The position numbers and the translations under genes are program-made. Positions 48,557 through 55,442 of a stretch of 64,000 nt of DNA are shown one piece after another. The number at the start of each line of letters is the position of its first letter. Position 1 is the stretch's first letter. This DNA comes from Apiotrichum sp. Y4204 (lineage: Eukaryota > Basidiomycota > Tremellomycetes > Trichosporonales > Trichosporonaceae). The stretch lies in the NCBI GenBank assembly GCA_025531455.1, contig JAMYHL010000010.1, positions 558,001 through 622,000 on the forward strand, written 5' to 3'. The notes beneath the pieces were generated by a model. The model was not told the DNA's origin and made no database searches. It saw only the letters and a program-made list of their open reading frames with translations.

Positions 48557-49401
48557 CTACTTTCCGCCAGCGGCCTTCCACTCCTCGACGGCCTCGCGCG
48601 CGGCCTTGGCGTTGGCGAGGGCAGTGGGCATGTCCGAGTGGAGACAGACGGTGTAGTGCCTGTCGAGGCCGGGGAGGCTGAGGGGGTTGCCCTCCTTGTC
48701 GAGAGTCTGGAGCTTGTTGAGCAGCGAGGACATCTTGGCCTTGATGCCCTCGGGGGTGCAGGGGTTGGACTGGGGGACACCAAGAAGGTTTCCTTTCGGG
48801 TCGTAGTCAATGTCGACAAAGACCTCAGGGACGAAGGGGATGCCGAGCTCGGCGCACACCTTCTCGTGGTTGGTGCCCGCGAGGCCGACGTACGGCAGCG
48901 GTGTCGAGTTGGGGGTGAGCGCGAGGTGGGCCTTCATGAACGCGCGGGTAAGGTCCTCGTTGTCGCGGAGGAGGAAGTAAAGCATGCCGTGCGGCTTGAC
49001 ATGCGACATCGTCGCGCCCTCGGCCTCGACCATGATCTTGAGCGCACCGAGCTGGTACAGCGCGAGCGAGTAGACCTCCTCGGGGGTCATGTCGATCTTG
49101 CGGCGGCCAAAGCCCTTGATGTCGTCGAGGCCAGGGTGCGCGCCGATGCCGACACCACGCTCCTTGGCGAGGCGGACCATGCGGAGCATAGTGGCGTGGT
49201 CGCCGGCGTGCATGCCGCACGCAATGTTGGCAAACTCGATGATCGGGAAGAGCTCCTCGTCCGGGCCGAGGCGCCAGCGGTAGTAGCCCTCACCCATGTC
49301 CTGGGCGTCAGCGGGGCCCAAGGGGTATGATTGTAGTTTGTACTCACGCAGTTGAGCGACACGCGGGGGAAGTTGGGGGCAGCGGGGGCGGTGACGGTCA
49401 T
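48557..49401 (-). CDS. lamB: LamB/YcsF (PxpA) family lactam-utilisation protein
   Basis: Exons 49401-49348 and 49300-48557 give 265 aa. The family signature is complete: RVSLNCDMGEGYYRW across the splice, IIEFANIACGMHAGDH, GVGIGAHPGLDDIKGFGRR, MSHVKPHGMLYFLL and DRHYTVCLHSDMPTA. In bacteria YcsF is PxpA, a subunit of ATP-dependent 5-oxoprolinase PxpABC. In Aspergillus, lamB is needed to use 2-pyrrolidinone. The gene is transcribed divergently from the lamA-type gene at 51620, which carries the KipI/KipA (PxpB/PxpC) homologues plus biotin carboxylase. It is soluble and probably cytosolic. The actual substrate here is unproved. Confidence 0.9.
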
Positions 49402-51619
49402 GGTGGGGTGTGTGGAGAGGGGGGAGTGTGGGTTGGATGAAGGGTCTTGTCGTTCTTTCTTGTGACGGCGATATATGCGATACGACGATGTGTGGTATCT
49501 CGAGGAGGCCTTCCGGTGACTTGCGATCAAGGGCGATAAAGCAGCAGTGTGAGTAATGTGAGGTGAGACAATAAACAGCCGGTGTCGCAGAGGTCGCCTG
49601 CACAGACGTACGTGCACCCATTCGATCGGCAGAGGCCCATGGGGAACGTGGTGGCGTTGTCTTGCGTCGTCTTGCGATCTGGCGACCGGCTGCAGCCGTG
49701 CAGCCGACAAGCTCCGCTGCCGGGGTCCTGCAGGGCCCGAGGTCGACGGTGTCTTGTGCTCGGCCTGTCAGCGGCGTCGTGGTGGGGTCAGTGAGCGATG
49801 CGGGGGCCGAGAGCCGAGCGGGGGGCGAGCAGCCAGGGACGCATACCGTGGGGAAGCGGGGTGGCCGGCTAGCAACTCTGGTTATCTCGCCAGCAGCCGG
49901 TGCCTGGGCCACCACCTCGGCATCTCCGTCGCTTGTGCCACGCAATCAAGCGATGCGATAACCTGTAAAGACTACGATTATCGTACCTGTCAAAGACGCC
50001 GGAGATGAAACTTCCGCCCCCACATGCACTCCCCCACACGAGTACACGAGGTCGCCGTCCATCGGCCTTAGATGGGTTGCTGGCGACTAGTTTCGCTGCG
50101 GATGACACATCCGGCGGGCGCCTGTCACCTGTGGCTGCCTCGGTGCCACTACCGATTCCAGCTGCCGCCTCGCAATTGACCACGCCATCCACGATGCCGC
50201 CTCCTGACGGCCATGTGCACCCCGAACCCCAAGTCGAGCACCCCATCTCCGCGCGTCCTGATCTCCGTCGCACTGCGCCGACGACCGAAGCCCCGATACT
50301 TACACCGGGTCGCCAACTCGCGAAGCCCGCCAGCTTTGCGTCCCGAGCTACTGCACTCGTGTGATCTGAACTCTGTGCTCTGTCCGCGGGGCCGGCCGCC
50401 AGGGAGCATGCCGAGAGCAGAGATCGACAGTGGGGTATGTACATCACTTGCTTGCACTCTAATACCGACCGTGACATGTCGACTGGCCCGATGGAAGGCA
50501 ACAGACGGGGCTTGGCACATGTCCAGATGGCGGCTAGATGCCGTCGGTGCGGGTGCAGACGCGTATGGACAGCAGCTGGACCGTGTTCCAGGCTCTTGGG
50601 GCTCGATCGATGTGACGCAACACGGACGGCTACTCTGTGCTGTTGCGCTGCGCGGAGTTCAGTTCCGACCACCAGCTCTAGTTAGCTCGTAGCCGAGAGA
50701 ATACCGAGCTAGAGCAGGGTCAGATGGGGCCAGCTGGGGTAAGGCACCTCCGTCGCCGATTGCATCTCACACGACAACAGAGCCGCCAGAGTGGAAGTCC
50801 ATCGGCAAAGCGGGTTGCTCTGGATCGTTTGAATCGCCTCGTTGCCGGCGGCCCCAGGCGCCACCCGCACTGTCCCCACTCCAGTGCCGTACCAAGTACG
50901 GCGTACGGCGTCCACCTCTCGATCAGATTGATCCCACTGTCCCAACTGAACGTTAACGTTATAGCAGGTCACGTGCGGGGTTAACAAAAGCAAAGAGAGG
51001 TACGAGAGGTACGTATAGATGGAAAGAGCCCCACATGTCAAGTCTAGTCGCCGATATCCGGACCTTGTCGCTTAGTCCCTGGATGTCTCGTACCCCGCAC
51101 ACCCCCGCACGCCTCGCTTATCCGCGCCACCGTCGCGATCGCGCTCTCGTCTATGCGAGGAGGCACAGCGATTGGCAGAGATTGTGGTTAGAGCATGTAC
51201 AGCTGGGGCAGGAGTGCGGGCCTGGCATTGCATCATGTGGCATGTCCAGCCGAGACCTACCCACGGGGGAGGGCGAGGAGCACCGAGAGGGGCCTACGGG
51301 CTTGCGACGGGGTACCTGGAGAATGCACAGAAGTAAGATCAGGATTGGTATCAGGCCGTGACGTCTCCGGTACACTGTACCAGGCCGAGCCCCAAGTCAA
51401 CCAGCCGAGAAGTGCGCGAGCATGAGCGCCGGCATCGCTTCGGCACGCTAGCCACGCAGTCACCTGTAGGCATGATACGGACACGCCGCAGCTCGCACTA
51501 CTCGCTCCAAGACAACGATATCTCCCCCCCACTCGATGAGCCGACTGCCGAACTTGCGATCATAAAACCCGGGGCCCTTGCGAGACACATTCCGTTTCTC
51601 CCCAGATAGCCACCACCAA
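49402..51619. promoter_or_regulatory. 2.2-kb divergent lamB/lamA intergenic region with GATA-factor motifs
   Basis: HGATAR-type sites (AreA/Gat1 nitrogen regulators) occur at 49882-49887 (minus), 49956-49961 (plus) and 49978-49983 (minus), three within about 100 bp, with others further out. Frames at 49754-50008, 50005-50364 and 49869-50672 are biased in composition, but I could not build a gene from them. A decayed or unrecognised regulator is possible. Confidence 0.4.
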
Positions 51620-54600: not shown

Positions 54601-55442
54601 CGAACACGCAGTACATTGCCGACAACAACGGCATGACCCTCGACGAGGTTCACGGCATCTTCACCGCCACCCCATGGCTCGTCCTTGCCCACGGCTTCTT
54701 CGTCATGCTGCCGTTCATCATCCCTATGGACCCCACCAAGCGTATCCTCGGCCAGAAGTACAACCCCTCGCGTACCAAGACCCCCGAGGGCGCGATCGGT
54801 CTGGCCGGTGTCATTGGCGCCATTTACCCCATCGCCTCGGCAGGTGGCTACCAGCTCCTCGGCCGTACCCTCTCCACCTGGCAGGCGTACGTTCAGGACC
54901 CCAAGGACCACTCGATCCTGCGCAACTTTGACCAGATCGAGTTCTACGTTGTCCAGCCTGACGAGTTTGTCTCGATCGAGCGCAACTTCAAGGCTGGCAG
55001 CTGGCAGCCCGAGACTCGCCAGGGCAAGTTTGTCATGCGCGAGTACCTCACCATGATCGAGGGCAAGCAGGCCGCGACCGACGCCTTCCGCGCCAAGCAG
55101 CTCGAGTGCAGCCAGCGCGTCGGCGAGCGCGAGGAGAAGATGTTTGCCGAGTTCCTCCGCCAGAAGGCTGAGGAGGAGGCCAGCGGCAAGTCTTCGGGTG
55201 GCGGCGCCGAGTTTGAGGGTATGCCCGTTGCGTCCCCCCTTTCTGCGTCCGTCTGGAAGGTCATGGTCAACGTCGGCGACGTGATCGAGGACGACGAGCA
55301 GCACGTCGTTGAGCTTGAGGCGATGAAGACCTCGGTCTTTGTCGCCGCCGGCGAGGACATGAAGGGCAAGAAGGTCACGGGTATTGCGGTCCAGCACGGC
55401 GACGCCGTCAACCCCGGCTCGCCCCTCGTTTACATTGCTTAG
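51620..55442 (+). CDS. lamA: LamA-type biotin carboxylase fused to KipA/KipI-like domains (urea-carboxylase-like, no amidase)
   Basis: Exons 51620-51904, 51991-52240 and 52297-55442 give 1226 aa. A second ATG at 51629 has a better context. Residues ~1-450 are biotin carboxylase (ILIANRGEIALRIQ, KASGGGGGMGM, ELNARIQVEHCVTE). From ~468 there is an AHS2/KipA (PxpC) domain (LAPGISTTVQDLPGRR). At ~825 comes an AHS1/KipI (PxpB) domain (RFFRQCGDEYVIYEVG, ATPWLVLAHGFFVMLPF). The last ~75 residues are a biotinyl domain with ELEAMKTS, Lys1189 being the biotin site. This is the urea carboxylase part of Dur1,2 without the amidase/allophanate hydrolase. Pairing with lamB points to lactam use, as for Aspergillus lamA, rather than urea. 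Strong codon bias suggests high expression. Confidence 0.9.

Follow-up and report, generated by a model that had tools for sequence, protein, structure and literature searches.

The window analysed here, the whole 64,000-nucleotide stretch of contig JAMYHL010000010.1 (C2 below) from Apiotrichum sp. Y4204, belongs to an assembly of 48.9 Mb in 182 contigs and harbors two genes, lamB on the minus strand and lamA on the plus strand, which lie head to head with their start codons facing across 2218 bases. The pair is confirmed as a real divergent locus. The lamB product has 265 amino acids and its gene one intron, the lamA product 1226 amino acids and its gene two introns, and both reading frames are intact; splice signals together with homology, rather than RNA, were used to deduce the exon structures. 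In window coordinates the features are the following.

48557..49300, minus strand: lamB exon 2, with the stop codon at 48557, encoding nearly the whole LamB/YcsF (PxpA) domain (splice reading and PF03746)
49301..49347, minus strand: lamB intron of 47 bases (GTGAGT...CCCAG), whose removal restores the frame SLNC-DMGEG
49348..49401, minus strand: lamB exon 1 with the start codon (splice reading)
49402..51619: shared divergent upstream region, start codon to start codon, 93.4% identical to the copy on contig C104
51620..51904, plus strand: lamA exon 1 with the start codon, biotin carboxylase N-terminal domain
51905..51990, plus strand: lamA intron 1, GT..AG
51991..52240, plus strand: lamA exon 2, biotin carboxylase with the Gly-rich loop
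52241..52296, plus strand: lamA intron 2, GT..AG
52297..55442, plus strand: lamA exon 3, remaining biotin carboxylase, carboxyltransferase, biotinyl domain and stop codon
53238..54062, plus strand: CT_A_B, KipA/PxpC-like carboxyltransferase subdomains A/B, residues 493-767 (PF02626, 261 bits)
53925..53927, plus strand: Asn722 (codon AAC), equivalent by alignment to Asn1330 of Kluyveromyces lactis; urea carboxylases have Asn here, guanidine carboxylases Asp
54243..54896, plus strand: CT_C_D, KipI/PxpB-like carboxyltransferase subdomains C/D, residues 828-1045 (PF02682, 96 bits)
54693..54698, plus strand: Gly978-Phe979, a one-residue gap in the alignment at Asp1584 of urea/guanidine carboxylases (codons checked)
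54756..54758, plus strand: Lys999, equivalent by alignment to K. lactis Lys1605, invariant in 34 rows
55221..55436, plus strand: biotinyl (BCCP) domain, residues 1154-1225 (PF00364, 35 bits)
55326..55328, plus strand: Lys1189 in the motif EAMK (codon AAG), the expected biotinylation site

LamB matches the LamB_YcsF family (PF03746) with 253 bits against a Pfam cut-off of 22. LamA carries, in order, Biotin_carb_N, ATP-grasp, Biotin_carb_C, CT_A_B (KipA/PxpC), CT_C_D (KipI/PxpB) and Biotin_lipoyl, and the Pfam domain scan found no amidase ahead of its biotin carboxylase. A first-pass annotation of this DNA had placed a YcsF/PxpA homologue head to head with a single protein combining biotin carboxylase, KipA, KipI and biotinyl domains, with the amidase missing from its start region; the splice-joined frames, the PF03746 match and the domain order bear out this description in all three respects.

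The whole lam region is present again on contig C104, about 94% identical across 11.4 kb. Between the two copies lamA differs by 76 synonymous and 5 non-synonymous changes in its 1226 codons (dN/dS 0.019) and lamB by 11 synonymous changes and no non-synonymous one. Each of the three introns is bounded by GT..AG on C2 and on C104 alike, and the lamB intron is equally long in both. Since the diverged copy has preserved the proteins in this manner, the lam genes are not a chance reading, and both are under purifying selection. Near-equal pairs on two contigs were also the best matches of several searched genes (C2/C104, C94/C139, C97/C110 and C100/C107), which, together with the similarity of the lam regions over 11 kb, suggests that the assembly represents a Trichosporonales-like yeast that is either a hybrid or an unphased diploid. 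Among the listed matches from named organisms, the one closest to the window LamA comes from Cutaneotrichosporon spelunceum (77%; Trichosporonales, Basidiomycota). In the related Trichosporon asahii, LamB protein has been identified in a gel spot, according to the available part of that study (PMC4111368).

The first-pass annotation had further described LamA as PxpB and PxpC parts joined to a biotin carboxylase, and this did not hold. Judged by its sequence, LamA is a homologue of urea carboxylase along the entire chain: the closest solved relatives are the urea carboxylase and urea amidolyase of K. lactis, whose alignments span residues 10-1221 and score 812 and 811 bits, and the LamA carboxyltransferase (CT) alone reaches 407 bits to K. 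lactis urea carboxylase, compared with 86 and 78 to the PxpC-type proteins TTHA0988 and YbgK. LamA falls far below the equivalog cut-offs of PxpB (38.7 against 145.55 bits) and PxpC (134.7 against 500); a simple join of PxpB/PxpC and biotin carboxylase is ruled out by these scores and by the CT tree described below. An AlphaFold2 model of the LamA CT (34-row alignment, mean pLDDT 92.5) is predicted to adopt the same fold as the K. lactis structures 5i8i and 3va7, with a TM-score of 0.90-0.91 over the query length. LamA thus resembles the urea carboxylase/amidolyase of K. lactis (PDB 3va7, 5i8i) in its end-to-end biotin carboxylase-CT-BCCP chain, in CT fold, and in having the equivalents of Lys1605 and Asn1330. 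It nevertheless scores 1197.4 bits with the urea carboxylase equivalog TIGR02712, below the cut-off of 1303.85, lacks Asp1584, and is partnered by LamB instead of allophanate hydrolase. LamB itself lies narrowly under the cut-offs of the NCBIfam PxpA subfamilies (223.4 against 226, and 199.1 against 213).

The active site of the CT has been studied in the K. lactis family. As criteria for guanidine carboxylase, one study demands Asp at position 1584 and uses position 1330, when Asp, to separate it from urea carboxylase (PMC11410670, as far as its available text goes); a review likewise assigns Asp to guanidine and Asn to urea carboxylase (PMC12186494, available portion). Lys1605 is described as the most likely general base, K1605A severely inhibiting KlUA (PMC5770610, in the accessible part). 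In the window LamA these three positions read Asn, gap and Lys. A site alignment was made of the K. lactis CT, the 120 listed LamA matches and the window LamA, 122 rows in all; Asp1584 is absent from 108 rows and present in 14, and of the listed matches 107 are without it and 13 have it. This share is not a census, since the list stops at 120 matches and was drawn with a fungal query. The gap is also visible as spacing: in four relatives checked, Gly and Lys are 22 residues apart when the Asp is present and 21 when it is absent. Recounting the Asp motif by regular expression proved too strict (8 against 13) and served only for the spacing. Among the matches listed, 82 were counted as organism-named, and all 80 fungi among them, Cryptococcus neoformans included, lack Asp1584; the other two are the animal Lineus, without it, and Mycolicibacterium, with it. 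The alga Ulva (P0117) carries Asp1584. Over 111 aligned CT rows three site classes emerge at 1330/1584/1605: Asn or Asp/Asp/Lys in urea and guanidine carboxylases, Asn (also Gln or Ser)/gap/Lys in the LamA class, and Gln/gap/Arg in PxpBC. Guanidine carboxylase, with Asp at both 1330 and 1584, shares the domain chain and Lys1605 with LamA, which differs in having Asn at the first position and no Asp at the second.

These residues, and the rest of the genome, bear on whether LamA is an ordinary urea carboxylase, served by an allophanate hydrolase encoded at a distance and with LamB unrelated to it. The end-to-end homology, the urea-type Asn1330 and the many relatives named 'urea carboxylase' in databases favor such a view, as does the Lineus fusion protein described below, which scores above the TIGR02712 cut-off; the missing Asp1584 and the TIGR02712 score of LamA itself, under the cut-off, argue against it. 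The first-pass annotation had proposed a genome search for urease and a separate allophanate hydrolase. Urease exons were found on C94 and C139, and no genome place reached the cut-off for allophanate hydrolase (best 99.8 against 511 bits) in a search carried out one exon at a time on a possibly incomplete assembly. Because exons are searched singly, the low score weighs less than the missing C-terminal part: the 32 matches to the allophanate hydrolase model all end by position 411 of 563. A KipA-type CT was found by genome search only at the lam locus and its second copy. A PF02538 gene (eukaryotic 5-oxoprolinase, OPLAH family) lies on C97 and C110 as a candidate OPLAH, and a γ-aminobutyric acid (GABA) transaminase candidate, its gene split by introns, reaches 524 bits in one piece, the whole-protein cut-off being 567. 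With these genes present, urea appears to be handled by other enzymes in this genome, 5-oxoproline is probably handled by another enzyme, and GABA, if it is the product, could be used by this fungus. The partnership with LamB also speaks against a urea carboxylase, LamB being fused to LamA in 12 proteins and adjoining it here, while a Cupriavidus urea/guanidine carboxylase adjoins atzF instead. On the TIGR02712 score, Asp1584, the partner gene and the genome content, a true urea carboxylase is ruled out as the leading interpretation, and we regard it as improbable altogether.

The fusions were found with the LamB part of the Lineus longissimus protein as query and targets restricted to about 830-2650 residues. 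This search returned 18 matches, 12 of which (P0109, P0090 and P0241-P0250) hold LamB, biotin carboxylase and both CT halves; the carriers include the ribbon worm Lineus as well as Didymodactylos and Rotaria, which are bdelloid rotifers, and in these animals LamB and LamA make up a single chain of about 1500 residues. None of the 12 has Asp1584, and Lys1605 is present in all. Three (P0247, P0248 and P0250) show the biotin motif QAMK, not EAMK, and P0249 stops ahead of the biotinyl domain; the remaining six, an incomplete P0256 (Mycena) and P0251-P0255 with unrelated domains, were not counted. A fungal LamB-LamA fusion, P0083 from Tephrocybe, has a broken gene model with gaps. Comparison of 86 of the 120 listed LamA matches with 57 of the 120 listed LamB matches gave five LamA-LamB pairs on contigs of identical size, three of them from Cryptotrichosporon argae and two Cryptococcus, and in C. 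argae the two genes bear the adjacent locus tags 006683 and 006684. Aspergillus nanangensis LamB (P0157) is 44% identical to the window LamB, among the matches listed, which do not include the LamA or LamB of A. nidulans.

In bacteria a biotin carboxylase was counted as nearby when it lay no more than 6 kb from the PxpA place and its score exceeded 150 bits. PxpA was found in 48 of 149 genomes of a Bacillota sample (50 places), with a biotin carboxylase nearby at one (L025), and in 28 of 120 genomes of a proteobacterial sample (30 places), with one nearby at 11, eight of which also have a BCCP match. In the latter sample, the biotin carboxylase gene of L091-L095 and L098 directly follows PxpC in PxpABC clusters with an Arg-type site. 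A scan of genome contigs gave four loci, one of them useful, again L025, from a Lachnospiraceae metagenome-assembled genome; no CT gene was found in the genomes of matches L026 and L027. At L025 the biotin carboxylase frame (6061-8067) goes on to encode a domain resembling cytidylate kinase (PF13189, 152 bits), and LamA-class KipI and KipA, then PxpA, follow downstream of this odd frame, which may stem from assembly or from fusion. L025 is ruled out as a clean bacterial counterpart, its biotin carboxylase frame ending in PF13189, not BCCP.

On plasmids, where 5 of 60 listed LamB-type matches were looked at as examples and not as a rate, Bradyrhizobium CCBAU 53340 has a BCCP-accC-pxpB-pxpC-biotinyl-pxpA cluster, Rhizobium SRDI969 a PxpA/biotin carboxylase/KipI/KipA-type cluster, Phyllobacterium T1293 the order pxpA-BCCP-accC-AHS1-pxpC-permease, and Leisingera PxpABC without biotin carboxylase. 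In the fifth, the Aureimonas plasmid pAU20c (L087), a lone pxpA stands beside xanthine-dehydrogenase-type genes and an aminotransferase; this PxpA clusters with fungal LamB in the LamB tree. Five LamA-type plasmid matches hold biotin carboxylase, KipA and KipI, all five with Asp1584, and no PxpA match was found in the stretches around them. The fusions and the bacterial gene clusters, most of which include a BCCP, tie LamB to the LamA class.

Comparison with PxpABC, the bacterial 5-oxoprolinase, raises another explanation, namely that the lam proteins are a PxpABC-like hydrolase which phosphorylates the lactam at the CT fold, the biotin branch being accessory or regulatory. LamB belongs to the PxpA family, the CT has the fold of PxpC and PxpB, Asp1584 is absent from both LamA and PxpBC, and canonical PxpBC is taken to act on 5-oxoproline by phosphorylation (PMC13274462, in its available part). 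The two systems differ in that PxpBC has Gln and Arg where LamA has Asn and Lys, and in that biotin carboxylase is not nearby at most sampled PxpBC loci. Among 81 bacterial loci with KipA and KipI, position 1605 is Arg in all 66 without a nearby biotin carboxylase; in the 15 with one, it is Arg in 11 and Lys in four (L025, L089, L117 and L118). Lys at 1605 was thus always accompanied by biotin carboxylase in the cases seen, but biotin carboxylase does not imply Lys, and the 11 Arg rows rule out Lys1605 as a marker of biotin dependence in bacteria. That LamA keeps the carboxyl-transfer Lys, that its whole biotin branch is present and strongly constrained, and that it branches with urea/guanidine carboxylases and not with PxpBC all make a phosphorylating LamA unlikely. 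Part of the PxpABC systems may themselves be coupled to a carboxylase, an idea kept open by the 11 of 30 proteobacterial places and by a structure from Mycobacterium smegmatis (MSMEG_0435-0436, PDB 9yx5), in which, according to entry title and chain names, a PxpC/PxpB-like pair is bound to a long-chain acyl-CoA carboxylase complex; a literature search among open-licence papers found none on this complex.

The branching order was obtained from a careful CT tree of 48 hand-picked rows, from which seven PxpBC rows had been dropped as long or odd; the trees took 23 of the 120 listed LamA matches, hand-picked to give a wide spread, together with 16 to 23 PxpBC-type rows out of 77. In the careful tree PxpBC forms one side of a branch (support 100/99), and the rows with Lys follow in the order L089/L117/L118, then L025, then the animal fusions, the urea/guanidine carboxylases (100/98) and fungal LamA (83/89). 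A quick tree of all 55 rows left this order unchanged, but there no single branch set PxpBC apart. The approximately unbiased test rejected a topology in which all Lys rows without Asp form one group (p 1.6e-7), and such a group with L025 and without the L089 group gave p 0.012; fungal and animal LamA as sisters were unsupported (57/11). If PxpBC is taken as outgroup, Asp1584 would have been gained in the urea/guanidine branch. In a quick LamB tree 17 fungal and seven fused LamB group with the PxpA of L117, L118 and L087 (support 99), apart from 26 other PxpA rows. The split that sets algal and fungal sequences together apart from the others in the available text of Strope et al. (PMC3073912) is compatible with the present CT tree taken unrooted.

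Urea carboxylase works by loading biotin, transferring the carboxyl group onto an amide nitrogen and leaving hydrolysis of the activated amide to a partner. LamA has those parts of this logic that could be checked, Asp1584 excepted, and a partner from the family of hydrolases that open 5-oxoproline. The reading that we favor, and consider fairly probable, is that LamA and LamB constitute a two-step lactam hydrolase dependent on ATP and biotin, in which carboxylation precedes ring hydrolysis. The biotin carboxylase domain of LamA would use ATP and bicarbonate to carboxylate the biotin on Lys1189, and the biotinyl arm would swing to the CT site, where Lys999 may deprotonate the lactam ring N-H so that carboxyl transfer yields an N-carboxylactam. 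LamB would open the ring at the amide so activated, leaving a carbamate that would shed CO2. The net reaction would be lactam, ATP and water to amino acid, ADP and phosphate, with GABA as the product of 2-pyrrolidinone; the system would be the lactam analogue of urea carboxylase and allophanate hydrolase, LamB replacing the amidase. The absence of Asp1584 would be expected, because a lactam substrate has no second free NH2 group. The gene pair, its domains, the retained and absent residues, the purifying selection, the fusions and the bacterial clusters are what the sequences show; each chemical step, carboxylation on N rather than on O or C, and the substrate are what we infer. A biotin-dependent route of lactam carboxylation and hydrolysis had been called plausible in the first-pass annotation, and it is retained as the best reading on the biotin branch, Lys1605, the fusions and the bacterial clusters.

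By analogy with Aspergillus genetics the substrate is probably 2-pyrrolidinone. The same chemistry might act instead on 5-oxoproline, hydantoin, oxindole or a larger lactam, given that the bacterial counterparts stand beside differing transporters (amino-acid ABC in Bradyrhizobium and Rhizobium, an 'allantoin permease' in Phyllobacterium); the candidate OPLAH available for 5-oxoproline and the genetic tie of Aspergillus lamA/lamB to lactams (PMC8016842, available part) render this rather doubtful.

Several observations weigh against the two-step lactam hydrolase. The Lineus fusion scores 1352.3 bits with TIGR02712 even though it lacks Asp1584; most bacterial loci with a nearby biotin carboxylase have Arg, not Lys; and the phosphorylation assumed for PxpBC, which is close in fold, might also be what LamA performs. 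The PxpA of L025 and L089 fall outside the LamB group, so that the CT and LamB trees are only partly congruent. For other fungi, equal contig size and one locus-tag pair were the sole basis for judging linkage, and LamB occurs in two Saccharomycotina yeasts (P0190 and P0195), a group without stand-alone urea carboxylase according to Strope et al.

The type of locus is already known. Katz and Hynes reportedly worked out lamA/lamB genetics in Aspergillus nidulans in 1989, and the two genes are said to be needed for growth of Aspergillus on 2-pyrrolidinone; their order in A. nidulans is divergent too, and LamA there carries the UniProt label 'putative urea carboxylase'. To our knowledge no enzyme chemistry has been described for the A. 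nidulans pair. According to the accessible part of one paper, AmdR controls lamA and lamB of lactam catabolism in this species (PMC8016842). The resemblance to the window thus consists of a LamB gene, a stand-alone urea-carboxylase-like LamA gene and lactam use under AmdR; it rests on description, not on direct sequence comparison, and A. nidulans belongs to another phylum, the window LamA being nearest to Basidiomycota. Strope et al. (2011; PMC3073912), in the portion available, reported stand-alone urea carboxylases in fungi, with one each and no amidase in A. nidulans and C. neoformans, and none in Saccharomycotina; the main text, to the extent available, makes no mention of lamA, lactam or pyrrolidinone. 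In open-licence literature, covered by titles and abstract openings, no paper was found on a lactam carboxylase or biotin-dependent lactam hydrolase, nor anything in print on the active-site class without Asp1584, the LamB-LamA fusions or the mislabelling.

Elsewhere in the window, two genes resembling FMN-dependent (cytochrome b2-type) L-lactate dehydrogenases lie on opposite strands at 44343-48357, and the nearer of them (46691 onward; Cyt-b5, FMN_dh) seems to end just past the 3' end of lamB. At 58046-59395 a frame with a zf-RVT match below threshold (22.1 against 27.5 bits) may encode the C-terminal part of a reverse transcriptase from a retrotransposon. About 5 kb past lamA, at 60301-61347, lies a transporter frame of the major-facilitator type (PF07690) that resembles allantoate permeases (DAL5) by eye.

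More broadly, we tentatively propose, as a possibility short of an even chance, that LamAB represents a widespread and unrecognised class of biotin-dependent lactam carboxylase-hydrolases, fused in ribbon worm and bdelloid rotifers and clustered in bacteria, that urea and guanidine carboxylases arose inside it when Asp1584 was gained and an amidase took the place of the PxpA-type hydrolase, and that some PxpABC 5-oxoprolinases are carboxylase-coupled. Lactam-opening enzymes are useful for nylon-type monomers and for GABA production. If the proposal is true, the 1989 lamA/lamB genetics would gain an enzyme mechanism, a carboxylate-then-hydrolyse route for stable cyclic amides, and many fungal 'urea carboxylase' entries would be lactam carboxylases, recognizable by a one-residue annotation test. 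It would also explain why fungi that bear urease retain an amidase-less urea-carboxylase-like protein and why animals have a LamB-LamA fusion gene, and it would hint at how urea and guanidine carboxylases evolved.

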